64,000 nucleotides of DNA from Streptomyces sp. NA02950 (GTDB lineage Bacteria; Actinomycetota; Actinomycetes; Streptomycetales; Streptomycetaceae), in the NCBI RefSeq assembly GCF_013364155.1, contig NZ_CP054916.1:1611001-1675000 (forward strand), written 5' to 3'. The translations under genes were made by a program, and so were the position numbers. The notes beneath the pieces were generated by a model. The model was not told the origin of the DNA. It searched no databases and saw only the letters and a list, made by a program, of their open reading frames with translations. Shown piece by piece: positions 28,620 to 64,000 of this stretch. Position 1 is the stretch's first letter. Every line of letters starts with the position of its first letter.

Positions 28620-28880
28620 TCACTCCCGCGAGGCGTCCCGTGCCATCTCCAGGAGCAGCAGCCCCAACCGGTTGCCCAGGGGGCCCAGTTCGGTGCGGTA
28701 GTGCAGCAGGGTCCCGTTCTCCCGGGCCAGTTCGGACCGCGGTACGCCCCTGGCCCCGCGCAGCTTGCCGAGCTGCCGCGCCGCCGCGCTGCGCTGCTGG
28801 ACCAGTGCCGCGATGGCGCGGTCCAGGTCGTCGACGACGGCCTGCTGTTCCTCCAGCTCGGAGGCGTCGGTGTGGTTCAT
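28620..28880 (-). CDS. Chorismate-mutase-like (AroQ fold) protein
   Basis: 86-residue three-helix protein. The central active-site helix residues match AroQ: QQRSAAARQLGK supplies the Arg and Lys, and LAREN the Arg-Glu pair. But the N-terminal Arg (R11 of the E. coli enzyme) has no counterpart in EEQQAVVDDLDR and the C-terminal Gln region is changed, so true chorismate to prephenate activity is uncertain. Its ATG overlaps the end of the upstream ATP-grasp gene by 4 bp, so it is translated with it. It could supply prephenate or be a repurposed fold. Confidence 0.7.
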   Translation of the reverse strand: MNHTDASELEEQQAVVDDLDRAIAALVQQRSAAARQLGKLRGARGVPRSELARENGTLLHYRTELGPLGNRLGLLLLEMARDASRE

Positions 28881-30139
28881 GCGAACGGGTCCAGTACTTC
28901 ATGGGCCTGGGCGAGCACATCCCGCATCGGCACCGCGGACACATCCTCGGTGCCGACGGGTTCGGTCCGGATGACGATCGACTCGGCCAGCTCCCGGCTC
29001 CGGCGGACGGCCTCCTCCCGGGTCGCCGCGTGCACCAGCACATAGCCGCGCCGGTCGTCCGACCACTGCTCCGGCCGGACCGTGTCCCCGACCTCCAGGT
29101 ACACCTTCAGCTCGGCCACGCCGCGGGCCGCGCGCACCGCGTCGACCCCGCTCACCTCGGTGACCCGCCCCGGCGCCACCCGGAGGAAGCGGATGGCGGC
29201 CGCGCCCCTCGGCTCGGGGGGCGGCACGGTGAAGTCCCCACGGGCCTCGCGCTGGAAGGGCAGGTCCTCCAGATCGACACCGGTGGCCAGCTCGACCAGC
29301 TTGCTGATCCGGTCACCGCCGCAGCGGCTGTGCGACTCCACCACCCGCGGTCCGCTCTCCGTCAGCATGATCTCGGTATGGGCCACCCCGTCCACCAGGC
29401 CCACCGCGTCCAGCACCTCCCGGGTGAACGCGGCGACCGCCTCGGCGTCCGGCGCGGGCAGCGCGGCCGGGATGACATGGCCCCGCTCGATCACCCCGCC
29501 GTCGGTCTCCTTGCCGGTGATCGCGAGCACGGTGTGCCGACCGTCCAGGGTGAAGGTCTCGACGCTGATCTCCTCGCCCTCGAGCAGCTCCTCGACCATG
29601 AAGTCACCATGCCCGTAGGTCTCGATCCACTCCCATACCTCGTCCACCTCACCGGGAGAGCGCACGGTGCGGACGCCCAGGCTCCCGGAACCCATGACGG
29701 GCTTCACCACCGCGCCGCCGTGTGCGGCGGCGAACGCGCGCAGTTCCTCGCGGGTGGTTCTGCGGGCGGCCGGGACGGGGCCGATGCCCTTGGCATTGAG
29801 CAGTTCCCGCAGCGCCATCTTGTCGTGCAGGGTGGCCGTGACCTCGGCGCCGTTTCCGGGGAGGCCGAGGACGGTGTTCAGATGCCCGGCGATCACCTGG
29901 CCGATCTCGCTCTGGGTGATGATCCGGGAGAACGGGTCATGGGTGTGGAGCGTCCGGGTCAGCTCGGTCACCAGTCCGATGTCCTGGTAGTCGAAGAGAT
30001 GGACCCGCTCGCAGTACTCCATGATGTCCGGGTCGAAAACCCCGGGCTTCTCGTAGTTGGTGATCCGCAGTCCCGAAGCGGCCGCCTTCTGGAGAATGCG
30101 GGGAATTCCGCCGAGGACAAGGATGTGAGGCATTGCCAT
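28877..30139 (-). CDS. ATP-grasp ligase 1
   Basis: 420-residue ATP-grasp carboxylate-amine (amino acid) ligase of the BacD / carnosine-synthase-like type: activates a carboxylate as acyl-phosphate and joins it to an amine. Seen: N-terminal PHILVLGGIPRILQKA, ATP-binding Lys in AAVVKPVMGSGSLGV, EEISVETFTLDG, and Mg-binding HTEIMLTESGPRVVESHSRC followed by GG. ATG at 30139 (an internal ATG at 30133 is possible). Downstream of MFS transporter 1 (20-bp gap) and coupled to the chorismate-mutase-like gene. Substrates unknown. Confidence 0.9.
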   Translation of the reverse strand: MAMPHILVLGGIPRILQKAAASGLRITNYEKPGVFDPDIMEYCERVHLFDYQDIGLVTELTRTLHTHDPFSRIITQSEIGQVIAGHLNTVLGLPGNGAEVTATLHDKMALRELLNAKGIGPVPAARRTTREELRAFAAAHGGAVVKPVMGSGSLGVRTVRSPGEVDEVWEWIETYGHGDFMVEELLEGEEISVETFTLDGRHTVLAITGKETDGGVIERGHVIPAALPAPDAEAVAAFTREVLDAVGLVDGVAHTEIMLTESGPRVVESHSRCGGDRISKLVELATGVDLEDLPFQREARGDFTVPPPEPRGAAAIRFLRVAPGRVTEVSGVDAVRAARGVAELKVYLEVGDTVRPEQWSDDRRGYVLVHAATREEAVRRSRELAESIVIRTEPVGTEDVSAVPMRDVLAQAHEVLDPFA

Positions 30140-30159
30140 GTCTACCCCAAAGACAGTTG

Positions 30160-31377
30160 TCAACGATGGGCTTCGGCCCGGCTCTTGATCCCTGGAGCCG
30201 GTGCCGATCTGAACCGCAAGAAACCAGTGAGATAGAGGACGCATGCCGCGGCGACCGCTGCCGTGGGCATCCATCCACCGAAAGTGCCGCCCCGATGCTC
30301 CGCCACATATCCGCACAGGGCGCTGCCGGCGGCCACTCCGACATTGGCGCTGGAACCGGCCCAGGTGAACACTTCCTGGAGCCGGTCCTCCGTTCCGCGG
30401 ACACGGCCCAGCATGGTGAATTCCTCGATACCGATGGCCGCCATGGGAATGCCCGCGAGGAACAGCGCCCCCGCCAGCGCCCAGGGACCGGACTGCGAGG
30501 ACACCAGCGCGAACAGGGCCAGCCAGGCGGCCAGCAGCAGCCCGAGGCGGCGCCCGGGAATCTTCTCCGCGGGCAGCAGTCCGTACAGCGCACCGCCCAG
30601 CACACTGCCCAGAGCGGGCGCCAGCAGGACGTACCCCGCGGACTCCGCGGCGCCCGACTCGTCGAGCACCGACACCACGGCCACATCCATCGCGCCCGCC
30701 ACCGCGGCGGTGGTCGCGGCGACGCACAGCAGCCAGACCACCGGTGGCGACAGCGTCCGCGCCGCCCGGCCGCGTACGGCCGCGCCGGACGCGCCCAGAT
30801 GGCGGCGGACGAGCCGGGTCGAGGCGAACCCCACACCGCCCACCACCACACAGCCGTCCGCGACCACCAGACCCAGCCGCGGGTCGAGCGCGGCCAGGGC
30901 GCCGGTCGCGGGCGGGGCGGCGATGAAGAGGAGTTCGGTGACCACGGACTCGAAGGAGTTGGCCGGGACGTGGAGCCGTTCCGGCAGCTCCGTCTTCGGC
31001 CACAGCGCCCGCATGGCCGCGCCGATGGGGGGCGTGGTGAAGCCGAGGACGCACGCGCCGGTGAGGAAGCCCGGTACGGAGCGGGCCTCGGCCCCGGACA
31101 GCGCCAGCGCCGTCCCGGCCACCCCGGCGGTCGCCCCCACCGCGTAGACCGGGGAGGTGCCGAACCGCGAGCTGAGCCGCCCGGCGACGGGGCTGCCGAG
31201 CGCCACTCCGACGGTCAGCCCGCTGGCGCCCAGTCCGCCCACCCCGATGCCCAGCCGCGCCGTGCCCAGGAAGAGCACGCTCAGTCCGCATGCGACATAA
31301 CCGAACCGTCCGATCAGCGCGAAGAATTCGGCCGGTTTGGCCCCGGGAACACGGAAGAGTTCCGCATACTGCCTCAC
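30160..31377 (-). CDS. MFS transporter 1
   Basis: 405 residues, about 12 membrane helices. It begins near FALIGRFGYVACGLSVLFLG and contains a loop 2-3 basic motif (GRLSSRFGTSPVYAVGA). Likely exports the cluster product or an intermediate, giving self-protection. The start is GTG at 31377, 14 bp after the upstream ATP-grasp gene, so it lies within a four-gene operon: ATP-grasp 2, MFS, ATP-grasp 1, chorismate-mutase-like. Confidence 0.88.
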   Translation of the reverse strand: MRQYAELFRVPGAKPAEFFALIGRFGYVACGLSVLFLGTARLGIGVGGLGASGLTVGVALGSPVAGRLSSRFGTSPVYAVGATAGVAGTALALSGAEARSVPGFLTGACVLGFTTPPIGAAMRALWPKTELPERLHVPANSFESVVTELLFIAAPPATGALAALDPRLGLVVADGCVVVGGVGFASTRLVRRHLGASGAAVRGRAARTLSPPVVWLLCVAATTAAVAGAMDVAVVSVLDESGAAESAGYVLLAPALGSVLGGALYGLLPAEKIPGRRLGLLLAAWLALFALVSSQSGPWALAGALFLAGIPMAAIGIEEFTMLGRVRGTEDRLQEVFTWAGSSANVGVAAGSALCGYVAEHRGGTFGGWMPTAAVAAACVLYLTGFLRFRSAPAPGIKSRAEAHR

Positions 31378-31391
31378 CGCGAGCTCCGGAA

Positions 31392-32696
31392 CTACTGGAC
31401 GCGGCGGGGGGAAACCGGGGCGAGTTCCAGTGTGATGGCGTCCTCGATCGCCTTGAGCTGGGCGAAGAAGTCGGCGAAGTCCCGGCTCGTGGCCAGCACC
31501 CGGAACGGATGGGCGATCGTCCCGTCGTCCGCCGCCATCCGGTCACCAGGCGACTTGGCCCGGACCACCTCCAGCACCCCGGGCAGCGCGGCGAGTTCCT
31601 CCTCACCGCCGATATCGGTGATCTCGAACTCGCCCTCCGGGGCCTGCGGGGTGTAGTAGAAGGCGTGACCGGTGAACTCGGGAAACTCCTCGAGCTGCCG
31701 ACCGAGCGCGGCGAGCCCCAGCTGCCGCAGTACGTCGTAACCGGCCGCCGCCCGCAGCAGTTCGGCGACTCCGCCGCCGATCCGGCCGTTGACCTCGATC
31801 ACCACCGGGCCGGAGGGGGTGAGCATCAACTCGGTGTGGGTCGCGCCCCAGGTGACCCCGAGGGCTCGCAGGGCGTCCGTCGTGGCCTCGCCGATCCGGT
31901 CCACGCGCCCCTCGGGCAGCCCGGACGGCATCACATCCCCCACCTCGCGGAACGGAGGGGCCAGCGGCAGCTTGTCGGTGACCGCGAGATGGTGGATCAC
32001 GCCGTCCGCCACGACGGACTCGACGCTCACACGCGTGCCCATACGTTCGTCGTCATGCCAGTTCTGACCGGCGATGACCTCTTCGACCACGAAGATCGGC
32101 CGGGATCCGACCACCCGGCGGTCGGTCGCGTACCGCTCCAGGGCGTCCGTGTACGCGGCAACCAGGGCGTCCGGGGTCTCGGCGCGGGTGACGCACAGAC
32201 TGCCCATCCCCACGGCCGGTTTGAGCATCAGCGGGAACGTCAGCTCCTCGGCGGCCCGCCGCAGCTCGCACTCGTCGGACACCACGGCGAACGCGGGGCA
32301 GTGGACGCCCGCGGCGCTCAACGCCAGCCGCTGGAGGTCCTTGCGCCGCAACCGGATCGCGGTCTGCGGGGTGTTGCCGGGCAGGCCGAGCGCGGCGGCG
32401 GCGACCGAGGCGTGATAGCTCACCATCTCGCTGAGGGCCAGCACACCGTCCACCGGCGTGCCCCGCGCGACCGTCCGGAGCACCTCGTCGATGACCTGGT
32501 CGGGGCGGTCGACGGTCTCCACCGGCCCGAGCGCGCCGAGTCGTTCGTTACGGAGCGCCTGCTCCGCCTCCGACCCCCAGCGCAGCGTGACAACGGTGTA
32601 TGTGGCCATGCCATGCAAGGAGGTCACGATGTCGTGCAATCCCGGCCCGGGAGGCGCATCCACCAGAACGAGGTGCGGCTTGGACGACGGTAACAC
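31392..32696 (-). CDS. ATP-grasp ligase 2, first gene of its operon, TTA codon at position 2
   Basis: 434 residues. Seen: FPLMLKPAVGMGSLCVTRA (ATP Lys), VVEEVIAGQNWHDDE, GATHTELMLTPSGPVVIEVN followed by GRIGGG (metal ligands). The acidic/basic N-terminal domain HLVLVDAPPGPGLHDIVTSL is the pre-ATP-grasp fold. The GTG at 32696 is chosen because GGGGGGAGAG lies just upstream; an in-frame ATG would add 13 residues. The second codon is TTA (32691-32693), making translation likely dependent on the bldA tRNA. Substrates unknown. Confidence 0.9.
   Translation of the reverse strand: MLPSSKPHLVLVDAPPGPGLHDIVTSLHGMATYTVVTLRWGSEAEQALRNERLGALGPVETVDRPDQVIDEVLRTVARGTPVDGVLALSEMVSYHASVAAAALGLPGNTPQTAIRLRRKDLQRLALSAAGVHCPAFAVVSDECELRRAAEELTFPLMLKPAVGMGSLCVTRAETPDALVAAYTDALERYATDRRVVGSRPIFVVEEVIAGQNWHDDERMGTRVSVESVVADGVIHHLAVTDKLPLAPPFREVGDVMPSGLPEGRVDRIGEATTDALRALGVTWGATHTELMLTPSGPVVIEVNGRIGGGVAELLRAAAGYDVLRQLGLAALGRQLEEFPEFTGHAFYYTPQAPEGEFEITDIGGEEELAALPGVLEVVRAKSPGDRMAADDGTIAHPFRVLATSRDFADFFAQLKAIEDAITLELAPVSPRRVQ
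32691..32693 (-). other. TTA codon 2 of ATP-grasp 2
   Basis: In-frame TTA (Leu) directly after the GTG start. Rare in Streptomyces and read by the bldA tRNA. Confidence 0.85.
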
Positions 32697-32801
32697 GCGC
32701 TCTCCCCCCAAATTTTTGGACACGCGCACGCACAAGGCGGCACACTCTTCTCAGAGGTGCCGTTCGGTCAATTCAACTCCGGGTTACGGAAAGACACTGG
32801 A

Positions 32802-32829
32802 ATCCTAACTCAGAACTGATCGAAGTCAA
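32802..32829 (-). promoter_or_regulatory. Promoter of the ATP-grasp 2 operon
   Basis: On the minus strand TTGACT (32824-32829) and TAGGAT (32802-32807) are spaced by 16 bp, a good vegetative-type promoter, about 105 bp before the start codon. Confidence 0.55.
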
Positions 32830-32901
32830 TAGCTGTCAGCTCCTCCTGACGGGGGCTCACCATGGTGGCACCCCGTAACCTCCGCTGGTCAGGCGGCTTG
32901 C

Positions 32902-32932: not shown

Positions 32933-32979
32933 CGTGACGTCTCAATCACTCGTCAGTGCGTTTCGAAGTGGAGTATTGA

Positions 32980-33771
32980 GTGAGTCTTTCCGATCTCAAA
33001 CCCATACCGAGAGACCAGCTCAGCTTACGGCTGCCGCAGGTATTCGACGACATCGCGGAAGAGCGGCGGCACCGCCAGGAGAGCCTGGTTATCGCATTCC
33101 GCTTGTTCGGCCGGTTCGGCTTCGAAGAGGGAATCGCCGGGCACATCACGGCACGCGACCCGGAGCACACCGATCACTTCTGGGTCAATCCGTACGGCAT
33201 GTCCTTCAAACACATCCGGGTCAGCGATCTGTGCCTGGTGAACCACCGGGGCGAGGTGGTCCACGGCCGTTACGACATCAACGAGGCGGCGTTCGCGATT
33301 CATTCCCGGATCCACGCGGCCCGCCCCGAGGTGGTGGCCGCCGCCCACAGCCACTCCATCCACGGCAAGGCGTTCTCCGCCCTCGGCGAGTTGCTGGAGC
33401 CCATCACCCAGGATGTCTGCGCCTTCTACGAGGACCACGCGCTGTACGAGGAGTACAACGGCGTGGTGGACGACCTCGAGGAAGGACGGCGGATCGCCCG
33501 CGCCCTCGGCGGCCACAAAGCGGTGATCCTGCGTAACCACGGACTGCTCACCGTGGGGCGGTACGTGGAGGCCGCCGCCTGGTGGTTCATCACCATGGAG
33601 CGGTCCTGTCAGGCACAGTTGCTCGCCAAGGCGGCGGGCGAGGTCGTGCACATCGACCACGACACCGCCCTGATGACACAGAAGGACATCGGCACCGACG
33701 ACATGGCGTGGACCAACTTCCAGCCGCTGCGCGACCAGACCGTCAGAAGCGAGCCCGATCTCTTCGACTGA
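32980..33771 (+). CDS. Class II aldolase/adducin family protein
   Basis: 263 residues. Zn ligands of the fuculose-1-phosphate aldolase fold are visible: AAHSHSIHG (two His) and LRNHGLLTVG (third His); GIAGHITARDPEHTDHF is the substrate region. Members catalyse retro-aldol cleavage or decarboxylation. The start is GTG at 32980 with GGAG upstream. Codon 16 is TTA (33025-33027). It is transcribed divergently from the ATP-grasp 2 operon and ends tail-to-tail with MFS 2, so monocistronic. Role in the pathway unknown; could make a hydroxylated amino acid precursor. Confidence 0.88.
   Translation: MSLSDLKPIPRDQLSLRLPQVFDDIAEERRHRQESLVIAFRLFGRFGFEEGIAGHITARDPEHTDHFWVNPYGMSFKHIRVSDLCLVNHRGEVVHGRYDINEAAFAIHSRIHAARPEVVAAAHSHSIHGKAFSALGELLEPITQDVCAFYEDHALYEEYNGVVDDLEEGRRIARALGGHKAVILRNHGLLTVGRYVEAAAWWFITMERSCQAQLLAKAAGEVVHIDHDTALMTQKDIGTDDMAWTNFQPLRDQTVRSEPDLFD
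33025..33027 (+). other. TTA codon 16 of the class II aldolase gene
   Basis: In-frame TTA within DQLSLRL (the second Leu). Confidence 0.85.
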
Positions 33772-33817: not shown

Positions 33818-35047
33818 TCACCCCTGTTGGGTGGTCTCATCCGGCCGGGCGGCCGCGCGGTCGGCCGCCCGGTCCCGCCACGCGGGCAGGAAGGCGATGA
33901 GCATCAGCAGCGCGGTCAGGGCGAAGGCCCGCGGATAGCCGACCGGAGCGGCCAGCGCCCCGAAGCCCACGGCGCCCACGCCCATCCCCGCGTCGTAGGC
34001 GAAGTTCCACAGCGCGCTGACCGTGCCGTATCCGGAGGCCGTGACCCGGGCGTACATCAGGGTGATGGTGGCGTTCTGGGCGACTCCGAAACCGATGCCG
34101 AACAGCGCCACCCCGGCCACCACGGCCACCGGGTTTCCGGTGAGCGCGGTGACGAGGATCCCGGCGGCAGACGCGAGCAGACCGGGCACCACCAGTCCGG
34201 CGGGCCCGTGCCGGTCGCCGTGACGCCCCGCGGCCCAGCGGGCCGCGGTCGACGCGGCGGGCTGGACGAACAGCGCCACCGCTACCAGCCCCGTGTACGT
34301 CGACGGAACGGCCAGCGGCAGGAAGGTGACCACGATCCCGGCGCCGAGCGCGGTGGTCGCGAACACCAGGGTGGGCCGCAGCAGTCCGGGTGTACGGAAT
34401 CCGGCGACGATGCCCAGCGGACGGTCCGGCGTCGGCTCCCGGGCGGGCAGCCCCGGCACCACGACGATCGCGGCCAGCGCCACCACCGCCCCCGTCACGG
34501 CCACGGTGGTGTAGCCGATGTGGGTCGCCAGCCAGACCCCCGCGGGCAGCCCCACCAGCGAGGGCACCCCCGCCACGATGCCGGCCACCGCCAGCCCCTC
34601 GCCGCGCCGCTCGGGCGGGATCAGAGACACCGTCAGCGCACCACCGGCCACCACCGTCAGGGCAAAGCCGAATCCGCGCAGCAGACAGACCGCCACGATC
34701 CACACCATGCCGTCGAACGCGGTCAGCACCAGCGCGGGCGCGCCGAGCAGCACCAGACCCACCGCCAGCGAGACGCGATAGCCGTAGCGGCCGACGAACC
34801 GCGGGGTGATCAGCTCCCCGGCCACCGTGGCCAGCATCAGCGCCCCGGTGGCCAGGCCCGCGGCGTTGCTGCCGCCGCCGGACGACTCCTTGGCGTAGAG
34901 CGGGACGACCGACAGCAGCAGGAAGAAGCTCGCCGAGGCGCCGATCACCGTCACAAAGCGCAGCAGCAGCGCCCGGGTCACCAGCCGCGGCCGGGCGACG
35001 GCGGCGGTGCCGGTGTCGGGGGTCTGCGGGTCCGTCGATGAGGTCAT
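33818..35047 (-). CDS. MFS transporter 2
   Basis: 409 residues, about 12 membrane helices. It starts near ALLLRFVTVIGASASFFLLL, with a GRYGYR motif after helix 2 and a C-terminal Asp/Arg-rich tail. ATG at 35047; no strong ribosome site is visible. Divergent from the MocR gene with only 46 bp between starts, a typical regulator-transporter pair, so MocR probably controls it. Could import a precursor or export a product. Confidence 0.87.
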   Translation of the reverse strand: MTSSTDPQTPDTGTAAVARPRLVTRALLLRFVTVIGASASFFLLLSVVPLYAKESSGGGSNAAGLATGALMLATVAGELITPRFVGRYGYRVSLAVGLVLLGAPALVLTAFDGMVWIVAVCLLRGFGFALTVVAGGALTVSLIPPERRGEGLAVAGIVAGVPSLVGLPAGVWLATHIGYTTVAVTGAVVALAAIVVVPGLPAREPTPDRPLGIVAGFRTPGLLRPTLVFATTALGAGIVVTFLPLAVPSTYTGLVAVALFVQPAASTAARWAAGRHGDRHGPAGLVVPGLLASAAGILVTALTGNPVAVVAGVALFGIGFGVAQNATITLMYARVTASGYGTVSALWNFAYDAGMGVGAVGFGALAAPVGYPRAFALTALLMLIAFLPAWRDRAADRAAARPDETTQQG

Positions 35048-35093
35048 ACCGGAACGGTAGAGACCGGGCGGGTCACCGGTAAGCTCCATTTCC

Positions 35094-36500
35094 ATGCCGC
35101 TGGAGTGGTCCGGTCTGTCGCCGGATCTGTTGCTGGTCCTCGACCGGGAGGGCGGGGAGCCCCTGCGGTCGCAGTTGGAGCGTCAGCTCCGGGACGCCAT
35201 CCGGTCCGGGCGGCTCCAGGTCGGCGAGCGGCTGCCGTCCTCCCGTGAACTGGCCCGCCGTCTCGCGCTGTCCCGGGGGCTGGTGCAGGACGCCTACGCC
35301 CAGCTCCAGGCCGAGGGATATCTCGTCACCCGGGTCGGCTCGGCCACCCGGGTCGCCGCGGGCGCGGGTGCCCCGCCCGCCACGGCCCGGCCCTCCCCGG
35401 AGCGTTCGCGGCTGGTGGCGGACTTCCAGTGGGGTGTCCCCGAGCTGAGCGGCTTTCCGCTGGCCGACTGGCTGTGGGCGATGCGGGACGCGGGCCGCAC
35501 CATGCCGGTGTCGGCGCTCGGCTACGGCGATCCGCGGGGCAGTGCGGTGCTGCGCGAGGTGCTGGCCGGATATCTGCGGCGGGTGCGGGCGGCGTCGGCG
35601 GATCCGGAGCGGATGGTGATCTGCTCCGGCTATGCCCAGGGGCTCGGGCTGGCACTGCGCGCACTCGCCCAGAGCGGGGTGCGCACGGTGGCGTACGAGG
35701 ATCCGGGCTCGCCCGCGGCGACCTCCTCGGTGGTGGCCTGGGCGGGCCTTTCGGCGGTGCCGGCGCCGGTGGACGAGCACGGGATCGACGTCACGGCGCT
35801 GGAGGCCACCGACGCCCGCGCGGTGGTCGTCACCCCGGCGCACCAGTGGCCGACCGGGGTGGTGCTGGCGCCCGAGCGGCGCCGGGCGCTGATCGCCTGG
35901 GCGCGGCGGCGGGACGCCACCATCATCGAGGACGACTACGACGCGGAGTTCCGCTACGACCGGGAGCCGGTCGGCGCGCTCCAGGGGCTGGCCGCCGACC
36001 GGGTGATCGCCATCGGCACCGTCAGCAAATCGCTCGCGCCGGGGCTGCGGATCGGCTGGCTGCTGTGCCCGCCGGCCGTCGTGGAGCGGATCACCGAGCA
36101 CAAGTATCTGAACGACCGCGGCTCCCCGGTGCTCGATCAGCTCGCCCTGGCGCGGATGATCGAGTCCGGTCGCTTCGATCGCCATCTGCGCCGGATGCGC
36201 ACGCTCTACGAAGCCCGGCGCACGGCGTTGGTCCGGGCCCTGGACACCCATGCGCCCGATGTGAAGGTGAGCGGTCTCGCGGCCGGCTTCCACGCGGTGG
36301 CGCATCTCGGCGACCAGGCCGATGAACGGGCCGTGGTCGCCGCCGCGCGGGCCCGGTCCGTGGGCCTGTACGGGATGAGCGCATGCCGTGCGGACCGGGC
36401 GGCGGAGCCGGTGGAACTCGTCCTCGGCTTCGGCAATGTGGGCGAGCGCGCCATCGCGGAGGGCATCGCCGCGGTGGGCGATCTGCTCTCCGGCTGCTGA
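35094..36500 (+). CDS. MocR-type regulator (GntR HTH fused to aminotransferase fold)
   Basis: 468 residues. N-terminal GntR winged helix (ERLPSSRELARRLALSRGLV), then a fold-type I aminotransferase domain with EDPGSPAAT, PLP Asp region IIEDDYDAEFRYD and Schiff-base Lys in TVSKSLAPGLRIGWL. MocR proteins use PLP and amino-acid-like effectors to switch neighbouring genes. Divergent from MFS 2, with a very short promoter region. It is the only regulator inside the visible cluster. It may sense an amino-acid intermediate (inference). Confidence 0.92.
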   Translation: MPLEWSGLSPDLLLVLDREGGEPLRSQLERQLRDAIRSGRLQVGERLPSSRELARRLALSRGLVQDAYAQLQAEGYLVTRVGSATRVAAGAGAPPATARPSPERSRLVADFQWGVPELSGFPLADWLWAMRDAGRTMPVSALGYGDPRGSAVLREVLAGYLRRVRAASADPERMVICSGYAQGLGLALRALAQSGVRTVAYEDPGSPAATSSVVAWAGLSAVPAPVDEHGIDVTALEATDARAVVVTPAHQWPTGVVLAPERRRALIAWARRRDATIIEDDYDAEFRYDREPVGALQGLAADRVIAIGTVSKSLAPGLRIGWLLCPPAVVERITEHKYLNDRGSPVLDQLALARMIESGRFDRHLRRMRTLYEARRTALVRALDTHAPDVKVSGLAAGFHAVAHLGDQADERAVVAAARARSVGLYGMSACRADRAAEPVELVLGFGNVGERAIAEGIAAVGDLLSGC

Positions 36501-39142: not shown

Positions 39143-39600
39143 GACACCAGGGAGCGCTCGACCCGCGCCACCTCCGCGCGGGTGGCGCGCAGCCGGTCCA
39201 GCACGGCCGGCAGGTCGTCGGGGTCCTCGACGATCCGGTCCACGCCCAGGTCGTACAGGCGGGAGACGGCCGAGGGGTCCTTGACGCTGCCCACCGACAG
39301 ATTCCCGCCGACAACGACGGGACATCCGATGCGCCCGGATCTCCGGGCCTCCGGGAGGTCCCTCAAGTCCTCGTGGACATGGCCGTTGAGGCTGCCGATG
39401 AGGATCGCCTCCGCCTCCGGGTGCTCCCGGTACGCCCTGGCGAACTCCTCCACCGGGGTGCACGCCCCGAGGTTGACCACCTCGAAGCCCTGTCCGCGCA
39501 GTGCGTAGGCGATGAGCTGGTTGGCCACCACATGGCAGTCGCTCGCGGCCACTCCGAGGATGACCAGACGGCGCCCGGCGGTCGTGTGTGCCGAGGACAT
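39139..39600 (-). CDS. Methylaspartate mutase subunit S (cobalamin-binding), DxHxxG changed to DxHxxA
   Basis: 153 residues, the small Rossmann-like subunit carrying adenosylcobalamin. The cobalt-ligating motif is SDCHVVANQ: Asp21 and His23 are present, but the usual Gly is Ala26. The other landmarks are normal: FEVVNLGACTPVEEF, ILIGSLNGHVHEDL (SxL) and PVVVGGNLSVG (GG). ATG at 39600, overlapping the GlmE gene by 4 bp. The Ala may tighten the nucleotide-tail pocket; activity is still likely because ligands are kept (inference). Confidence 0.92.
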   Translation of the reverse strand: MSSAHTTAGRRLVILGVAASDCHVVANQLIAYALRGQGFEVVNLGACTPVEEFARAYREHPEAEAILIGSLNGHVHEDLRDLPEARRSGRIGCPVVVGGNLSVGSVKDPSAVSRLYDLGVDRIVEDPDDLPAVLDRLRATRAEVARVERSLVS

Positions 39601-56343: not shown

Positions 56344-59300
56344 GCAGCTGGAGGACTCCCCCCTGTCCGGGCGGATCGCCGTCGTCGGCATGGACTGCCG
56401 GTTCCCCGGCGCCCGCGACCACACCGAGTACTGGCGCAACCTCCTCGCGGGCACCGATCACCTCACCGATCTGGACGAGGAGCACCTGCGTGCCGCCGGG
56501 GTGCCGGAGGAGACGTTCACCGGCGACCGCTATGTGCGCCGGGCGGCGGTGGTCGAGGACGCCGACGCCTTCGACGCGTCGTTCTTCTTCCTCAGCTCCC
56601 GCGAGGCCGAGCGGATGGACCCGCAGCTGCGGCTGTTCCTCCAGACCTCCTGGGCGGCGCTGGAGCACAGCGGCCATGACTCGGAGGTCTACCCGGGCCG
56701 GATCGGTATCTTCGCCGGTTCGCTGACCAGCACCTATCTGCTGAACAACGTCCTGACCGGGGAGCGCGGTTTCAACGGTTCGCTGCCCCGGTTGCAGCAG
56801 GACATGGCCACGCTGATGGGCAACGACCCCAACTACCTCACCACCCGCGCCTCGTACCACCTGAAGGTCACAGGGCCCAGTTTCGCGGTACAGACGGCCT
56901 GTTCCACCTCGCTGGTGGCGGTGCACGTGGCGGCGCAGAGCCTGCTCGCCGAGGAGTGCGATGTGGCGCTGGCCGGCGGAGTGGCGCTGCGCTTCCCGCA
57001 GGAGGCGGGATACGTCCACGAGACCGACGGCATCGCCTCGGCCGGGGGCACCGTGCGGCCCTTCGACGCGGGCGCGGACGGCACCGTGTTCGGCAACGGC
57101 GTCGGGGTGGTGGTGCTCAAACGGCTGGAGGACGCGCTCGCCGACGGGGACACCGTCTGGGCGGTGCTGCGCGGTTCGGCGGTCGGCAACGACGGCAACG
57201 ACCGCGCCGGATTCACCGCGCCCGGGATCTCCGGCCAGGCCGCCGTGCTCGGCGAGGCGCTCGGGGTGGCCGGGGTGGACCCGGCCTCGGTCAGCTATCT
57301 GGAGGCCCACGGCACCGGAACCCGGATCGGCGACCCGATCGAACTCGCCGCCGCGGCGCAGGTCTACCAGGTGGACGGCGCTCCCCCGCTCACCCTGGGC
57401 TCGGTCAAGGCCAACATCGGGCATCTGAGCACGGCCGCCGGTGTCGCCGGACTGATCAAGTGTGTGCTGATGCTGCGCCACCGGACACTGGTGCCGACCC
57501 CGCACTTCACCGAGTGGAACCCGGAGTGCGAGGTCGAGGGGACCCGCTTCCGGATGGGCACCGCGGTGGAGCCGTGGCGGCGCGGTGACGGCCCGCTGCG
57601 GTGCGCCGTCACCTCCACCGGGATGGGCGGCACCACCGCCCATGTCGTCCTGGAGGAGGCACCGGAGGCCGCCGTGTCGACGGACGGGGCCGCGCCCGCC
57701 CCGCCGGTGGTGCTGCTCCCGGTGTCCGCCAAGTCGCCCGCCGCGCTGGAGACCGCGCGGCTCGCCCTCGCCGACGCCCTGGAGGAGACAGCGCCGGAGG
57801 ACGCCCCGCACACACTCGGCGACATCCATCTGGACGACGTGGCGTACACCCAGGCCACCACCCGGCACACCTTCGACTACCGGGCCGTGGTCACCGCACC
57901 GGACCGGGCGAGCGCCGTCCGGGCGCTGCGCACCGCCGATCCGCGGTTCGTCTTCCAGGACTCCGGCCACCCCGCCGACCGCCCGGTCACCTTCCTCTTC
58001 CCCGGCCAGGGCGCCCAGTACCCCGCCATGGGCCAGGGCTGGTACGAACACCTGCCGGTCTTCCGCGACACGGTGGACGAGTGCGCCGCACTGCTCGAAC
58101 CCCGTCTCGGGCTCGATCTGCGGGACGCGCTCTACCCCGCGCTCCGCGGCCACCAGGGCGAACGCCACGACCTGGGCCGGACCCGGCTCACCCAGCCCGC
58201 CCTGTTCACCGTGGAGTACGCCCTCGCCCGGCAGTGGATGGCGTGGGGCATCCGCCCGACCGCGCTCATCGGCCACAGCGTGGGTGAGTACGTGGCGGCC
58301 ACCCTGGCCGGGGTGTTCCGGCTGCCCGACGCGCTACGGGTGATCGCCGAACGCGGGCGGCTGGTGGACGGACTGCCCGCCGGGGTGATGCGGGCCGTGA
58401 TGACCACCCCCGAGGAGCTGGCGCCGTACCTGGGCGACGGCGTGGACCTGGCCGCGGTCAACGAACCGGCGGTGTGCACCGTCGCCGGATCGCGCGAGGC
58501 CGTCCGGGCGCTGACGGACCAGCTGACCGCGGATGGTGTGCCGCACCGCAAGGTGTCCACCTCTCACGCCTTCCACTCCGCGATGATGGACCCGGCCGTG
58601 GAGCCGCTGACCGAGGTGGTGCGCGGGGTCGGACTGAGCCGCCCGCGGATCCCGTTCCTGTCCAACCGCACCGGCACCTGGATCCGCGACGAGGAGGCCA
58701 CCGACCCCGCGTACTGGGGCGCGCATCTGCGGGACACCGTGCGGTTCGCGGACGACGTGGCCACCGCGCTGGCCGAGGGCGTCCAGGTCTTCGTGGAGGT
58801 GGGCCCCGGCCACACCCTGGCCACCTTCACCCGGCGCCACTCGGACCGGCAGACGGGTGTCCCGGTGGTCACCTCCACCGCACGCGCCAAGGACCCGGCC
58901 GCCGATCTCACCGCGCTGACCGCCGCGCTCGGCCGGCTGTGGGCGATGGGGCTCACCCCCGACTGGGCGGGCTACTACGCGGGCCGCGGCCGCCGCAAGG
59001 CACCGCTGCCCACCTACCCCTTCGAGGCCACCCGGTACTGGGTCGAGCCCGGTTCGGGGCCGCTGACCGGGGCGGGCGGCCGTACCGGCTCCGGCGCGGT
59101 GGGCAAACTCCCGCTGGACGCGTGGTTCTCGGTACCGGTGTGGCGGCCCGCGGTCGGCACGCTCGACACGGACGTGGCCCCGATCACCGAACCGGTGCTG
59201 CTGTTCGCCGACGCCCGGGGCACCGCCGCCCGGGTCGCCGGACACACGATCGCCGGTGAGGTGCTGACCGTGATCGCGGGCGAGGCGTACGGACGGCACG

Positions 59301-61051
59301 GGGACACCTTCACCCTGCGCCCCGACTCCGAGCAGGACCACGGCCGGCTGATCGGCGAACTGCTCGCCGAGAACCGGCTGCCGGGCCGGATACTGCACGC
59401 CTGGTCCACCGACCCGCTGCCGCCCGAGCGCGGTACCGAGCGCTTCGAAGTGGCCCAGCGCCGGGGCGTCTACAGTCTGATCGCCCTGGTCAAAGCGTTG
59501 GGCAAACACGATGTGACCCGCCCGCTCCAGCTGGACCTGATCAGCGCGGGGGCGTACGCCATCAGCCCGACCGAGCCCGAACCGGCCGCCGAACTGGTGA
59601 CGTTGGCGGTGGCCGCGCGGGTCATCGGCCAGGAGCACGGCAACATCGGCGCCCGCCACATCGATCTGCCCGCGGCCGTCGACCAGCGCTCGCTGCGCAC
59701 CCTGGCGGCCGAACTGACCTCCGTCCAGCCGCCGGAGCTGGCCGTCACCTTGCGCGGCGGCACCCGCTGGGTCGCCGATCTGGAGCCGGTGCGCGCCGAC
59801 TGGACCGCCGAGGCACGGTCCCGGCTGCGGGACGAGGGCGTCTATCTCATCACCGGCGGCCTCGGCGAGATCGGTTCGCTGATCGCCCGCTGGCTGCACG
59901 GCGAGACCCGGGCCCGGCTGGCGCTGCTGACCCGTGACGCGCTGCCCGGGCGAGAGGAGTGGGACACCTGGCTGGAGAGCCACGAGGACGACGACGAGAC
60001 CTCGCTGCGCATCACCCGGCTGCGGGAGCTGGAGGCGGCGGGCGCCGAAACCCTCCTGGTGCACACCGATGTGGCCGATGTGGACGGGCTGCGGACGGCG
60101 GTGGCGAAGGTCGAGGAGCACTTCGGCGCGCTGCACGGGGTGGTCCATGCCGCCGGGCTGCCCAGCGAGCAGTGGGACCGCGCCCTGACCAGTGCCGACG
60201 TGGAGCAGTGCCAGTGGCATTTCGTCCCCAAGGCCCACGGCCAGATCGCTCTGGAGCAGGTGCTCGCCGACCGCCCGGTGGACTTCTGTCTGATGCTGTC
60301 CTCGCTGGCCGGTGTGCTGGGCGGACTGCGGCTGCTGGCGTACGGCGCGGCCAACCACTTCATGGACGCCGCCGCCGAACGGGCCAACCGGGGCCTGGAC
60401 CGTACGGTGTGGATCAGCGCGGCCTGGGATGTGTGGCAGCACCACCAGGACGAGAAGCGGGCCATCTCGGCCATCGGCCGCAGCATGGACGACAAGGCGA
60501 TCCAGCCAGAGGAGGGGCTCGAGGCCATCCGCAGACTGCTGTCGCTGCGCGATGTCTCCCATGTGGCGGTCTCCACCTGGGACATCGGCTACCGGCTGGA
60601 CCAGTGGGTGCGCGACGAGCGGATCGTCCGGCCCAGCGCGGGGGCCGCGGCGCTCGGCGAGGAGGCGGCGGACACCGAGTCCGGCGGGCTCACCGAGCAG
60701 GTGGCCCGACTGGTGCGGGACGCGCTGGGAGCCGAGGAGATGCCCGTGGACGGGGACATCTTCGAGTTCGGCGGGGACTCGCTGCTGATCGTCCGGCTGC
60801 TGTCGGACGTCCGGGAGTTCTTCTCCGTCGAGGTGCCGCTGGCCGATGTGCTCGCCGAGCCGACCCCGGCCGCGCTGGCCGGGCTCGTCCAGCGGCGGCT
60901 GGACGCCCGCGAGGAGGGGGCACGGTCCGGCGGGGACGGCGAGGCCGATGAACTCGAGGCGCTGGCGGCGGAGCTGGCCGCGCTCGACCCCGACGTCACC
61001 GAACGGCTGCTGTCCGAGGCGGCCCTGGCAGAACAGCCCAAGGAGAGCTGA
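56336..61051 (+). CDS. Type I PKS module, KS-AT-KR-ACP
   Basis: 1571 residues. KS about 12-440 with Cys189 in TACSTSLVAVH, EAHGTGT and NIGHL; AT about 555-850 with Ser648 in GHSVGEY and the malonyl-type HAFH; an AT-KR linker; KR with ITGGLGEIGSLIARWL (NADPH, residue 1174) and YGAANHFMD; ACP with Ser1482 in EFGGDSL. No DH, ER or TE, so one malonate extension and ketoreduction. The GTG at 56336 follows CAGGAGG and overlaps the A-T gene by 8 bp. Probably extends the aminoacyl unit loaded by the A-T protein; release must be by another protein. Confidence 0.95.
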   Translation: MTEQLEDSPLSGRIAVVGMDCRFPGARDHTEYWRNLLAGTDHLTDLDEEHLRAAGVPEETFTGDRYVRRAAVVEDADAFDASFFFLSSREAERMDPQLRLFLQTSWAALEHSGHDSEVYPGRIGIFAGSLTSTYLLNNVLTGERGFNGSLPRLQQDMATLMGNDPNYLTTRASYHLKVTGPSFAVQTACSTSLVAVHVAAQSLLAEECDVALAGGVALRFPQEAGYVHETDGIASAGGTVRPFDAGADGTVFGNGVGVVVLKRLEDALADGDTVWAVLRGSAVGNDGNDRAGFTAPGISGQAAVLGEALGVAGVDPASVSYLEAHGTGTRIGDPIELAAAAQVYQVDGAPPLTLGSVKANIGHLSTAAGVAGLIKCVLMLRHRTLVPTPHFTEWNPECEVEGTRFRMGTAVEPWRRGDGPLRCAVTSTGMGGTTAHVVLEEAPEAAVSTDGAAPAPPVVLLPVSAKSPAALETARLALADALEETAPEDAPHTLGDIHLDDVAYTQATTRHTFDYRAVVTAPDRASAVRALRTADPRFVFQDSGHPADRPVTFLFPGQGAQYPAMGQGWYEHLPVFRDTVDECAALLEPRLGLDLRDALYPALRGHQGERHDLGRTRLTQPALFTVEYALARQWMAWGIRPTALIGHSVGEYVAATLAGVFRLPDALRVIAERGRLVDGLPAGVMRAVMTTPEELAPYLGDGVDLAAVNEPAVCTVAGSREAVRALTDQLTADGVPHRKVSTSHAFHSAMMDPAVEPLTEVVRGVGLSRPRIPFLSNRTGTWIRDEEATDPAYWGAHLRDTVRFADDVATALAEGVQVFVEVGPGHTLATFTRRHSDRQTGVPVVTSTARAKDPAADLTALTAALGRLWAMGLTPDWAGYYAGRGRRKAPLPTYPFEATRYWVEPGSGPLTGAGGRTGSGAVGKLPLDAWFSVPVWRPAVGTLDTDVAPITEPVLLFADARGTAARVAGHTIAGEVLTVIAGEAYGRHGDTFTLRPDSEQDHGRLIGELLAENRLPGRILHAWSTDPLPPERGTERFEVAQRRGVYSLIALVKALGKHDVTRPLQLDLISAGAYAISPTEPEPAAELVTLAVAARVIGQEHGNIGARHIDLPAAVDQRSLRTLAAELTSVQPPELAVTLRGGTRWVADLEPVRADWTAEARSRLRDEGVYLITGGLGEIGSLIARWLHGETRARLALLTRDALPGREEWDTWLESHEDDDETSLRITRLRELEAAGAETLLVHTDVADVDGLRTAVAKVEEHFGALHGVVHAAGLPSEQWDRALTSADVEQCQWHFVPKAHGQIALEQVLADRPVDFCLMLSSLAGVLGGLRLLAYGAANHFMDAAAERANRGLDRTVWISAAWDVWQHHQDEKRAISAIGRSMDDKAIQPEEGLEAIRRLLSLRDVSHVAVSTWDIGYRLDQWVRDERIVRPSAGAAALGEEAADTESGGLTEQVARLVRDALGAEEMPVDGDIFEFGGDSLLIVRLLSDVREFFSVEVPLADVLAEPTPAALAGLVQRRLDAREEGARSGGDGEADELEALAAELAALDPDVTERLLSEAALAEQPKES

Positions 61052-61054
61052 CCC

Positions 61055-62086
61055 GTGGACTTCAGCCTGATCTTCTTCTCCGGCGACGAGAAGAACAAAT
61101 ACCGCTTCGTCTTCGACGCCGCCCGGTTCGCCGACGAGAACGGCTTCACCGCCATCTGGACCCCGGAGCGCCACTTCCACCGCTTCGGCGGCCTGTACCC
61201 CAACCCCTCGGTGCTCGGCGCCGCGCTGGCCCAGGCCACCCAGCGGCTCCAGATCCGAGCGGGCAGCGTCATCCTGCCGCTGCACAGCCCGATCCGGGTG
61301 GCCGAGGAGTGGGCGGTGGTGGACAACCTCTCCCAGGGCCGCGCCGGGATCGCGCTGGCCACCGGGTTCAGCCCGGTGGACTTCGCCATCAACCCCACCG
61401 GCTGGGAGGACCGCCGCCGGCGCACCTTCGACGCGGTGACCCGGATCCGCGAACTCTGGGAGGGTGAACCGGTGTTCGTGCAGGACGGCCTCGGCAACCA
61501 CGTCGAGGTGGAGCTGCATCCGCAGCCCGTCCAGCCCGAGTTGCCGATGTGGCTCACCTGCACCAAGAGCCCGGAGACCTTCGAGACGGCCGGGCGGCTG
61601 GGCTGCAATGTGCTCACCGCCCTGATCGACATGACCAACGAGGAGCTCGAGGAGAAGCTCGAGATCTACTTCAAGGCCCTGGACGAGTACGGGCACGACC
61701 GCGAGGACGTGACGGTCACGCTGATGCTGCACACCTTCATCGGCACCGACCTGGACGAGGTGCGGGAGACCGTGTGGCCGCCGTTCACCACGTACCTGAA
61801 GTCCTTCCTCACCGTCATCGACTCGCAGAAGAAGAACCTGGCACCGGGCGCGGGGGTGCGGGACATGTCCGAGGGCGACACCGACCAGCTGATCAAGTTC
61901 GCCTTCGACAAGTACTTCGAGAAGGGCGCCCTGCTGGGCACCCCTGATTCGTGTGTGGCCGTGGTCGACCGGTTCACGGGCATGGGCGTCACCGAGATCG
62001 CCTGTCTCATCGACTTCGGCGTCGACGAGGAGCTGGTCGTGCGCAGCCTCAGCCAGCTGGACGAACTGAGGAGGCGTTACGCATGA
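61055..62086 (+). CDS. Luciferase-like FMN monooxygenase, MupA/Atu3671 family
   Basis: 343 residues, TIM-barrel bacterial-luciferase fold: FSLIFFSGDEKNKYRFVFDA, FTAIWTPERHFHRFGGLYPN, IRAGSVILPLHSPIRVAEEW and DNLSQGRAGIALATGFSPVD. This subfamily is usually found as a domain in, or next to, NRPS and PKS proteins and hydroxylates carrier-bound acyl chains with FMNH2 and O2 (as in mupirocin). Here it stands alone, 3 bp after the PKS gene, with AAGGAGAG at its GTG start. Likely hydroxylates the PKS-bound intermediate. Confidence 0.92.
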   Translation: MDFSLIFFSGDEKNKYRFVFDAARFADENGFTAIWTPERHFHRFGGLYPNPSVLGAALAQATQRLQIRAGSVILPLHSPIRVAEEWAVVDNLSQGRAGIALATGFSPVDFAINPTGWEDRRRRTFDAVTRIRELWEGEPVFVQDGLGNHVEVELHPQPVQPELPMWLTCTKSPETFETAGRLGCNVLTALIDMTNEELEEKLEIYFKALDEYGHDREDVTVTLMLHTFIGTDLDEVRETVWPPFTTYLKSFLTVIDSQKKNLAPGAGVRDMSEGDTDQLIKFAFDKYFEKGALLGTPDSCVAVVDRFTGMGVTEIACLIDFGVDEELVVRSLSQLDELRRRYA

Positions 62087-63429
62087 CAGGCTCGTCCGTA
62101 CCGGCGGAGCTGGCCGCCCGGCTGGCGGCCCTCACCCCGGAGCAGCGCGCCCGGCTGCGGGACCGGGTGCGCCAGGAGCGGCGCCCCCGGCAGCGGGTGC
62201 TGACACCCGGCCAGCGCAGGCTGTGGGAGGCCCATCACACCACCGGCGGCCGCCCGGTGGACGTGGTCTGCCAGGCCGTCCGGCTGACCGGGGCGCGGGT
62301 CGACCTGGATCTGCTGGCGGAGCGGATCGAGGGGTTCGTCCGGCGCCACGAGGCGCTGCGCACCACCTTCGAGGAGACCGCCGACGGTGTCCGGCCGGTG
62401 GTGCACGCGGAGTTGCCGCCCCGGCTGCTGCGCACCTCGTGCCCGGACGCGGAGGAGGCGTACGCGCTCGCCCGCGAGCTGGCGCACGAGGCGTTCGATC
62501 TGGCGGCCGGTCCACTGCTGCGGGTGGTGCTGGCCGAGGGCCCCTCCGGCGACGAGGCGTGGCTGCTGGTGGTCGTCCACAATCTGGTCTTCGACGCCTG
62601 GTCGTTCGAACTGCTGCTGGACGAGCTCGGCCGCGCGCCGGGGACGGCGGAGCCCGAGGCGGTGCCGTTCAGCCGGTTCGCGGAGGAGCAGGCCGCGTGG
62701 TCGGCGAGCGAGGCCGGACGTGCGGCGGCGGCGTACTGGGCGGCCGAGGTCGCGGATCCGCCCGCGCCGCTGCCCACCGACCGGCCGCGCGGCGGGGCGA
62801 CCCGGCGCGACGGCGGACGGGTGGAGTTCAGCCTGCCCGCCGCGGTGGCCAAGGGGATCACGGCAGCAGCCCAGCAGGAGGCCGCCACCGCCTACGCGGG
62901 CTGGCTGGCCGTGGCGTGGGCCGCGTTCGAGGAGTTCGGCGGCTCGTCCGACGTGCTGCTCGGCACCTTCACCGCGGGCCGGGACCGGCCGGGCGCCGAG
63001 GCGACCGTGGGCTATCTGCTCAATGTGCTGCCGGTGCGGCTGCGCGACCCGGGCGACGGCGGCCCCGCCGCGCGGATCCGGGCCGCCCGCGCGGTCTCCC
63101 GGGCCGGGCTGCGGCACGCCGTCTGCCCGGGCGAGCTGATCGACGCCCCGCGCCGGGTGCCGGGCACCCATCCGCTGCTGGACGCGGTGTTCGTCTTCGA
63201 CAACCTCGGCGAGGGCACCCGTACCGTGCAGGGGGCCGAGGTCACCACGGCCGACCTGGACAAGGGCGTGGCCCGCTACGACCTGACGCTCGCGGTCCAC
63301 CCGGGTGCGGACGGGGTGTCCGGCTGGCTGGAGTACGACACCGGGCTGTACGACGAGGCCACGGCGCGCGGGCTGGCCGAGCGGTTCGTCGCCGCGGCCG
63401 AGCGGATGTCCCGGGAGGCCGCGCGGTGA
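62083..63429 (+). CDS. Free-standing condensation-like domain with altered active site
   Basis: 448 residues of the NRPS condensation fold: LTPGQRRLWEAHHTTGG at the start, FVRRHEALRTTFEETADGVR, LAHEAFDLAAGPLLRVVL, and SSDVLLGTFTAGRDRP near the latch. The catalytic HHxxxDG is HNLVFDA (residues 166-172): the second, catalytic His is Asn and the Gly is Ala. Either it uses a different mechanism, or it is a docking or shuttling protein rather than an amide former. ATGA overlap with the monooxygenase gene. Confidence 0.88.
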   Translation: MTGSSVPAELAARLAALTPEQRARLRDRVRQERRPRQRVLTPGQRRLWEAHHTTGGRPVDVVCQAVRLTGARVDLDLLAERIEGFVRRHEALRTTFEETADGVRPVVHAELPPRLLRTSCPDAEEAYALARELAHEAFDLAAGPLLRVVLAEGPSGDEAWLLVVVHNLVFDAWSFELLLDELGRAPGTAEPEAVPFSRFAEEQAAWSASEAGRAAAAYWAAEVADPPAPLPTDRPRGGATRRDGGRVEFSLPAAVAKGITAAAQQEAATAYAGWLAVAWAAFEEFGGSSDVLLGTFTAGRDRPGAEATVGYLLNVLPVRLRDPGDGGPAARIRAARAVSRAGLRHAVCPGELIDAPRRVPGTHPLLDAVFVFDNLGEGTRTVQGAEVTTADLDKGVARYDLTLAVHPGADGVSGWLEYDTGLYDEATARGLAERFVAAAERMSREAAR

Positions 63430-64000
63430 TCACACCACGGCTCTGCGGTCCCGCCTACGAACTGGGCGAGTACGCCGATCCCGTGAGCGAACTGCCGGAG
63501 CTCCGGGCGGCGCCGCGGATCGCGGCCGATCTGACCTCGCCCGCCGCGGGGTTCGTCAGCTACCGCTGGTCCGAGGCGCCGGTGGCCGAGCTGATGACCG
63601 CCGCGGTCCAGCGCACCCTGGCGGCGTCCGGGGTGCCGGGCGGCGACATCGACATGGTGCTGCTGGCCACCGACTCGCTGCCCGGGGGACGCGCCGCGCA
63701 CCGGGACGTCGCCGAACTCCTCCAGGAGACCGGAATGTCCCGGGCCACGGTGTCCACGCTCGGTCTGATGGACTGCGCCACGGCGATGGCCGCGGTGGGC
63801 ACGGCGGCCTCTCTCGTCCGGGACGGCACCGCGCGTCAGGTCATGGTGGTCAGCGGGGATCTGGCCGAGCTGTCCACCGGCGGGCAGCGGGTGGTGGCGG
63901 GCGGCGCGGCGATCGCCAGCGACGGGGCGGCCTCCGCCCTGGTGTCGGCGGACGCGCCGGGTCGTCCGGTGCTGGCCATGGCCCACCACGCCGACCCGGA
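63426..64000 (+). CDS. KAS III-like beta-ketoacyl synthase/acyltransferase (partial, 3' end off the window)
   Basis: 191 residues visible of a thiolase fold. The active Cys is Cys117 in LGLMDCATAMAAV; then VMVVSGDLAELSTGG and the start of the second half. The His and Asn of the C-terminal half lie beyond the edge. KAS III-like proteins in such clusters start chains, or transfer acyl groups to hydroxyls or amines (CerJ type). Start GTG overlaps the condensation-like stop (GTGA), so the operon continues rightward. Confidence 0.88.
   Translation, partial: MITPRLCGPAYELGEYADPVSELPELRAAPRIAADLTSPAAGFVSYRWSEAPVAELMTAAVQRTLAASGVPGGDIDMVLLATDSLPGGRAAHRDVAELLQETGMSRATVSTLGLMDCATAMAAVGTAASLVRDGTARQVMVVSGDLAELSTGGQRVVAGGAAIASDGAASALVSADAPGRPVLAMAHHADP

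Follow-up and report, generated by a model that had tools for sequence, protein, structure and literature searches.

A conserved two-arm gene cluster of Streptomyces sp. NA02950 that may combine aminopyrrole, 3-methylaspartate and polyketide chemistry

Gene content and conserved linkage of the two arms

A 64,000-nt stretch of the 9.77-Mb genome of Streptomyces sp. NA02950 (contig NZ_CP054916.1, positions 1,611,001-1,675,000; hereafter, the window) contains a biosynthetic locus with two divergently transcribed arms. The left arm carries genes for an adenylation (A) protein, an EctC-like cyclase, a TrpB2-type tryptophan synthase beta protein, both glutamate mutase subunits (MutE and MutS) and ATP-grasp ligases, and the right arm carries genes for an AroA-like protein, an FrhB-like protein and a polyketide synthase (PKS). 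Genes g28-g56 were called from codon usage, domains were assigned by Pfam and NCBIfam scans, and the reading was extended to window coordinate 102,000. An earlier note, made from the letters of the window, had listed the ATP-grasp genes (g29, g31, g35, g39), MutE/MutS, g40-g45 and g47-g55, and all of them were found. Extending the sequence rightward, a step suggested in that note, placed the right end of the conserved unit at 64,969, with the remainder of g55 and a flavin reductase gene (g56) beyond the window's end at 64,000; the unit spans 33.0/33.8 kb to 64.97 kb. At its left side are a class II aldolase-like gene (g32; 32980..33771, plus strand; Aldolase_II) and an MFS transporter gene (g33; 33818..35095, minus strand; Pfam MFS_1), which bounds the main conserved block on the left; both belong to the conserved unit, although the earlier note did not list them. 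We propose that the locus is one biosynthetic cluster composed of two exchangeable modules, a proposal to which we give an even chance.

When 293 genomes of the order were searched with MutE (g36), 93 gave a match at E ≤ 1e-30, our own included, and 14 genomes besides our own carried MutE at 61-77% identity. Comparison of the regions around these 14 matches and two more at 40-43% showed that three of the 16 (G291, G117 and G254) possess g33, g35-g46, g32 and g47-g56; these 24 genes are arranged, as in our strain, in two divergent blocks. In these relatives g32 (~74% identity in all three) is relocated to a site between g46 and g47, and g33 holds its position. The other 13 regions included 11 with MutS, and further matches were scattered, the strongest being to g39 (51%, G155) and g53 (48%, G274). 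Because three of the 16 regions preserve this block arrangement of 24 genes, the combination is not a product of chance, and the retention of both arms in three other Streptomyces genomes makes it highly probable that they form one conserved cluster, as the earlier note had supposed. The left flanks of the hybrid cluster differ between genomes. Neither g28-g31 nor g34 was matched in the blocks of any of the three relatives, and g31 had a single 38% match at E ≤ 1e-60 among the 292 other genomes of the order. Thus, the four ATP-grasp ligases of the earlier note all exist, but as a count for the conserved pathway four is too many, since two are unmatched in the relatives. The relatives carry an extra gene (family F53) that resembles ketoacyl synthase (KAS) III and, downstream, gene families for a GNAT protein, an acyl-CoA-dehydrogenase-like protein and a class II 3-deoxy-D-arabino-heptulosonate 7-phosphate (DAHP) synthase, assigned by Pfam in G254 and present as the same DAHP synthase family in G291 and G117.

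The right arm also occurs by itself. An alignment of FrhB (g49) scanned against a collection of genomes from 84,980 species identified 11 close relatives (73-80% identity) and eight distant ones (23-30%). At 9 of the 11 close loci, g47 and the genes that follow it were present without left-arm genes in the stretch read (two stop at a contig edge); these include loci in S. rimosus, S. diastatochromogenes, S. sulfonofaciens, S. noursei and Umezawaea tangerina. MutE had no match at E ≤ 1e-100 in any of the nine genomes, and the same query does match in the order-wide search. In six of the seven stand-alone arms that were fetched in full, the next genes are for a free carrier, an MFS protein and a nonribosomal peptide synthetase (NRPS) family; the NRPS of S. 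rimosus, the one scanned of the six, has the order adenylation-thiolation-condensation (A-T-C). The seventh locus (AC1-42W) has a C-A-T-TE NRPS, ending in a thioesterase, and a carbamoyltransferase upstream. In the hybrids, the right arm is not followed by an NRPS family. A concatenated g47-g55 tree of 11 genomes split the four hybrids from seven stand-alone arms at 100% support, with ~0.4 substitutions per site between our strain and G291, and a tree constrained to hybrid monophyly was identical to the free tree. Since nine genomes have a right arm by itself, this distribution indicates that the two arms joined, or came apart, during evolution, and it would be compatible with a single joining, or a single loss, after which the arrangement was long retained. 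A conserved pairing of modules that are also found apart offers a natural example of pathway recombination.

Two side observations concern the right arm elsewhere. The stand-alone arm of S. rimosus is also followed by a small protein, chorismate-mutase-like by eye and without a Pfam hit (L100:15763-17264), and an FMN-dependent dehydrogenase. FrhB-like proteins 46-52% identical to g49 occur, among the matches listed, in Burkholderia, Flavobacterium, Brenneria, Agrobacterium vitis, Pseudomonas and Nostoc; a plasmid collection gave no g49 match at E ≤ 1e-30.

The EctC-like cassette and the adjoining TrpB2-type gene

Five minus-strand genes of the left arm form a cassette that recurs in other genomes: a transglutaminase-like protein (g41; 42802..43488), an acyl-CoA-dehydrogenase-like protein of the prolyl-carrier type (g42; 43485..44669), the EctC-like cyclase (g43; 44681..45058), a free carrier protein (g44; 45055..45330) and a free A protein (g45; 45458..47011). 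At E ≤ 1e-33, g43 matched 49 places in 46 of 391 genomes of the order, so that the cassette looks common; of the 45 places not belonging to the four hybrids, 20 were fetched. Of these 20 loci, 19 have both g42 and g43, 18 have g45 (G240 shows a further match at 31%) and 15 have g41. Residues read from anchor motifs, at what we take to be the specificity pocket positions, followed the pattern DL[LF]x[LVMI]T[VIL]DSK in 22 of 22 A proteins and, by eye, in that of Nonomuraea; the pocket of g45 reads DLLMLTVDSK, is constant with the showdomycin-like loci and agrees with only part of what we assume to be the pyrrole-type code. The presumed metal-ligand residues of EctC were kept, by eye, in all 24 sequences shown. 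The closest relatives of g42 are prolyl-carrier dehydrogenases (PigA/RedW models, below their cut-offs; nearest solved chain 4irn).

The genes that accompany the cassette vary. With Pfam assignments made on one member per family, a PsuG-like (pseudouridine-glycosidase-like) protein and a HAD phosphatase were found in six of the 20 loci, paralogues of TrpC, TrpF, TrpA or TrpD (not all four in each) in seven, and an arylmalonate-decarboxylase-like protein alone in five; one locus has none of these partners and one is not a cassette. The first combination corresponds to showdomycin biosynthesis as described, in which SdmE cyclizes glutamine to 2-amino-1-pyrroline-5-carboxylate, SdmC activates the product, SdmD carries it, and oxidation and hydrolysis lead to a pyrrole intermediate, on which a YeiN-like C-glycosynthase, SdmA, and then a phosphatase, SdmB, follow (PMC8724604). 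Our locus likewise brings together an A protein, a free carrier, an EctC-like cyclase and a dehydrogenase, but has a TrpB2, a glutamate mutase and ATP-grasp ligases in place of the C-glycosynthase and phosphatase, neither of which was detected by Pfam among g28-g33 and g35-g56. Ren et al. (2021) reportedly identified the showdomycin intermediate as 2-aminopyrrole-5-carboxylate, which is reported to autoxidize to a maleimide. Because the cassette with PsuG-like and phosphatase genes matches the sdm gene set, g41-g45 most likely make this aminopyrrole from glutamine, not ectoine or a proline ring, and by this analogy we hold the assignment with considerable confidence. The cyclized amino acid predicted in the earlier note is thereby retained and narrowed to what is most likely 2-aminopyrrole-5-carboxylate. 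That note had also called the cluster unrecognized: no paper on the combination as a whole was found in the literature searched, but the cassette does correspond to the first half of the showdomycin pathway (PMC8724604).

Cassette-type EctC-like cyclases are labeled ectoine synthase in public records (among the best 120 of 876 matches), though some sit in NRPS-like cassettes, as on Streptomyces xanthii plasmid NZ_CP061282.1 (L159:3733-11071), where the cassette occurs with Trp paralogues of the kinds listed above. Such labels may hide aminopyrrole natural products as a class. The loci with Trp paralogues look as if aminopyrrole were handled like anthranilate toward an indole analogue.

The TrpB2 gene (g40; 41429..42802, minus strand) directly adjoins g41 in our genome and in the three relatives. 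Its product scores above the cut-offs of two TrpB2-like models (657.6 vs. 366 and 575.3 vs. 518.85 bits), keeps the pyridoxal phosphate lysine and the TETGAGQ motif expected of the family, and scores 398 bits against 6hul; our genome has a separate canonical TrpB. A plasmid collection yielded an independent instance of the pairing, in Nonomuraea gerenzanensis (NZ_LT559118.1; 11.85 Mb, labeled a plasmid), in which carrier, EctC, dehydrogenase, transglutaminase-like and TrpB2 (65%) genes run in the same direction, TrpB2 overlaps the preceding gene by 4 bases, an A protein gene lies nearby on the opposite strand and a FAD_binding_3 protein gene follows. No other g22-g66 gene, including those for glutamate mutase, ATP-grasp and PKS proteins, was matched at E ≤ 1e-10 in this 20.6-kb region. 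As an aside, the Nonomuraea cassette with TrpB2 (L160:8137-12027) would be a minimal system for examining the proposed coupling. None of the 20 fetched EctC loci had a g40 match.

In a tree of 10 sequences, the five cassette-linked TrpB2s formed one clade with support of 1.000; the five others were drawn from 11 further places that match g40. Four of these five come from genomes outside the 46 with an EctC match, and in the fifth (G269) TrpB2 lies on a different contig from the cassette. Residue 342 is Ala throughout the cassette-linked clade but Tyr in all five comparison proteins and in the solved TrpB2s 6hul and 4qys; our protein, the three relatives and Nonomuraea read AGGLRAH at the site of the AGGLRYHG motif. 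This is one of 29 fixed differences. In TrpB1, the corresponding residue lines the indole pocket. We consider it an open bet, with neither outcome favored, that g40 would couple serine to the carbon of the pyrrole at which SdmA attaches ribose in showdomycin synthesis. The linkage allows coupling of aminopyrrole to an amino acid to be tested directly in vitro. An apparent in-frame TGA in eight TrpB2 relatives was set aside as an ordinary stop codon, no internal stop being present in the five alignments that were re-read.

Glutamate mutase, peptide ligases and right-arm genes

Upstream and downstream of these genes the left arm, all on the minus strand, encodes an ATP-grasp ligase with an LAL_C2 domain (g35; 36540..37778; 63-64% identity in the three relatives), MutE (g36; 37775..39142), the B12-binding subunit MutS (g37; 39139..39600), a 172-residue protein without a Pfam match (g38; 39606..40124), a DdaF-like ATP-grasp ligase (g39; 40191..41432) and a DUF885 protein with an HEGVPGHH motif that we read as metallopeptidase-like (g46; 47155..48822). 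Like known glutamate mutases, the pair comprises both subunits, and MutE, which aligns with 6h9e, keeps by eye the residues we take to be glutamate ligands (positions from 1I9C); unlike them, both subunits score below the NCBIfam equivalog cut-offs (MutE, 349.9 vs. 390.1 bits; MutS, 96.5 vs. 110 bits). Because the presumed ligand residues are retained, MutE/MutS likely make 3-methylaspartate, as the earlier note had expected. Both g35 and g39 resemble ATP-grasp dipeptide ligases (BacD, DdaF, L-amino acid ligases) in matching solved L-amino acid ligases (3vot is the chain nearest g35), and g39 passes the subfamily model PRK07206 (333.3 bits vs. a cut-off of 302); they differ from these in that neither reaches an equivalog cut-off. 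In the order, g38 was found in 4 of 293 genomes, the four hybrids; a protein database contains 214 relatives, and 13 columns are invariant across 37 sequences. Among 396 genomes of the phylum it was found in our own genome only, and a plasmid collection gave no match at E ≤ 1e-10.

The right arm, on the plus strand, begins with the AroA-like gene g47 (49361..50782), followed by genes for a class III aminotransferase (g48; 50779..52062), the FrhB-like protein with 4Fe-4S motifs (g49; 52059..53300) and, from weak Pfam/NCBIfam matches, a medium-chain dehydrogenase/reductase (MDR)-type dehydrogenase (g50; 53297..54370). These four gene types occur in this order in 13 of 13 loci (our own, G254 and the 11 FrhB relatives). 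A homologue of AroA, which is 5-enolpyruvylshikimate-3-phosphate (EPSP) synthase, is put to another use in the bisenarsan pathway (PMC12159101). In g47, the GNxGT loop is replaced by [GEA]GSSA in all 13 orthologues, where the canonical AroA encoded elsewhere in our genome has GNAGT. Residues K22, S23 and R27 (E. coli numbering), which we take to bind shikimate 3-phosphate, are kept in 12 of the 13; the thirteenth (OK074) has a gene call that lacks the N-terminus. Class II DAHP synthase is an entry enzyme of the shikimate pathway. Since g47 keeps the presumed shikimate-3-phosphate residues and the relatives carry a DAHP synthase gene, a shikimate-derived unit is the best reading, and the chance that the right arm makes a shikimate-derived amino acid seems to us about equal to the chance that it does not. 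Our guess is that g47 carries out an elimination rather than an enolpyruvyl transfer. Loss of the lysine presumed to correspond to K411 in g47 was considered as proof of lost phosphoenolpyruvate binding and rejected; in our own AroA the motif is displaced by one residue in the alignment, and CP4 EPSP synthase also differs there, so that the argument uses the GNxGT change alone. The cyclohexane-carboxylate and enacyloxin pathways are described as having an AroA-like gene next to a PKS, together with reductases; our cluster is set apart by its class III aminotransferase and FrhB-like protein.

The remaining right-arm genes encode an A-T didomain protein (g51; 54367..56343) with the pocket DSQPAGACAK in 11 of 11 sequences; a type I PKS (g52; 56336..61051) with ketosynthase (intact; TACSTS, EAHGTGT), acyltransferase, ketoreductase and acyl carrier domains, the acyltransferase motif HAFH being presumably of the malonyl type; a MupA/Atu3671-type FMN monooxygenase (g53; 61055..62086; TIGR04020, 454.9 bits vs. 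a cut-off of 244.45); a condensation-like protein (g54; 62083..63429); a KAS III-like protein (g55; 63426..64415, crossing the window end) which, on inspection by eye, has a Cys at the motif where one is expected; and, past the window, the flavin reductase (g56; 64,442-64,969). In g54, which was aligned with PvdL, Asn replaces the catalytic second His of HHxxxDG in 11 of 11 sequences, and the first His is also lost in S. noursei.

Proposed pathway and competing readings

In the pathway we propose, g43 would cyclize glutamine to 2-amino-1-pyrroline-5-carboxylate, g45 would load this product onto carrier g44, g42 would aromatize the carrier-bound ring and g41 would free 2-aminopyrrole-5-carboxylate. 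TrpB2 (g40), standing in for the C-glycosynthase of showdomycin, would then join the nucleophilic pyrrole carbon to serine to give a tryptophan-like aminopyrrolyl-alanine, which could autoxidize to a maleimide. MutE/MutS would supply 3-methylaspartate, and g35 and g39 would form peptide bonds. In the right module, g47-g50 may convert a shikimate-type intermediate to an amino-carbocyclic acid, which g51 would load and PKS g52 would extend by a reduced C2 unit; g53/g56 would hydroxylate the extended unit, and g54/g55 would pass it to an amine from the left module. That both arms feed one product is, on the sequence evidence, somewhat favored. More tentatively, and with the balance tilted against us, we suggest that the maleimide amino acid made by TrpB2 is an electrophilic warhead within a 3-methylaspartate peptide capped by a shikimate-derived aminocarbocyclic polyketide acid, and that the cassette is a general synthon with exchangeable partners (PsuG, TrpB2, TrpD/F/C/A). 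The product is probably new; neither the cluster nor the TrpB2/cassette pair was described in the literature searched, which included few subscription papers.

Conserved linkage alone does not prove a single product, and it is possible, if on balance doubtful, that two neighboring clusters inherited side by side make separate products, the left an aminopyrrole/methylaspartate peptide and the right a shikimate/PKS compound. The nine stand-alone right arms and the divergent transcription would fit this explanation, as would the lack of an FrhB match in six of seven apparent genome records common to the g38 and EctC-like matches, an indirect sign of lone left arms that is weak, because the listing gives the longest contigs of cluster representatives only and the FrhB scoring covered the best 8000 candidates. 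Against it, the linkage has been kept over the ~0.4 substitutions per site noted above, and the NRPS family that follows most of the fully fetched stand-alone arms is missing from the hybrids. The earlier note had named an assignment of the arms to different clusters as one outcome that would overturn it; the linkage in three relatives speaks for its view, but the right arm does lead a separate existence. Several further observations count against a single pathway of the proposed kind. Right arms are found by themselves, as left-type loci probably are, which makes two products possible. Three gene families of the relatives, for DAHP synthase, GNAT and a second KAS III, have no member in our own cluster among genes up to g75. 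Our right-arm proteins are no closer to those of the other hybrids than to those of stand-alone arms (FrhB, 77-78% vs. 73-77%; PKS, 78% vs. 73-79%). The identity of the cassette is argued from gene set, pocket pattern and partner genes, with sdm matched by description; TrpB2 could instead use indole or another nucleophile; and the role of g54 is uncertain because its catalytic His is absent in all 11 sequences.

Two narrower alternatives appear improbable to us in like degree. If the cyclase, A protein, carrier and dehydrogenase made an ectoine-like or proline/pyrrole unit, with four ATP-grasp enzymes building a peptide, the retention of the presumed EctC metal ligands and the kinship of g42 with prolyl-carrier dehydrogenases would be expected. 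Yet Pfam revealed no EctA-type acetyltransferase or EctB beside g43 in the scanned region, where the only class III aminotransferase (g48) lies in the other operon, the A pocket fits the presumed pyrrole-type code only in part while remaining constant with showdomycin-like loci, and g29 and g31 are not conserved. Likewise, the presence of a second AroA-like gene beside a canonical one, together with a DAHP synthase gene in a relative's cluster, could mean that g47 is a self-resistance EPSP synthase and that the product inhibits the shikimate pathway. The missing GNxGT loop, a score under the AroA cut-off (257.2 vs. 287.25 bits) and the invariable succession of aminotransferase, FrhB and MDR genes after g47 in the 13 loci argue against this.

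Outside the conserved unit, the flank genes scanned gave no pathway signs, the left ones being for a permease, a DUF305 protein and a pyridine-nucleotide oxidoreductase, and the right ones OYE, BNR, UDG, scramblase and BcrAD-type genes. Next to the cluster on its left, g28-g31 (28620..32627, minus strand) encode a chorismate-mutase-like protein, an ATP-grasp ligase, an MFS protein and a second ATP-grasp ligase; this run of own-strain neighbors may represent either a module added to the cluster or a small cluster of its own.

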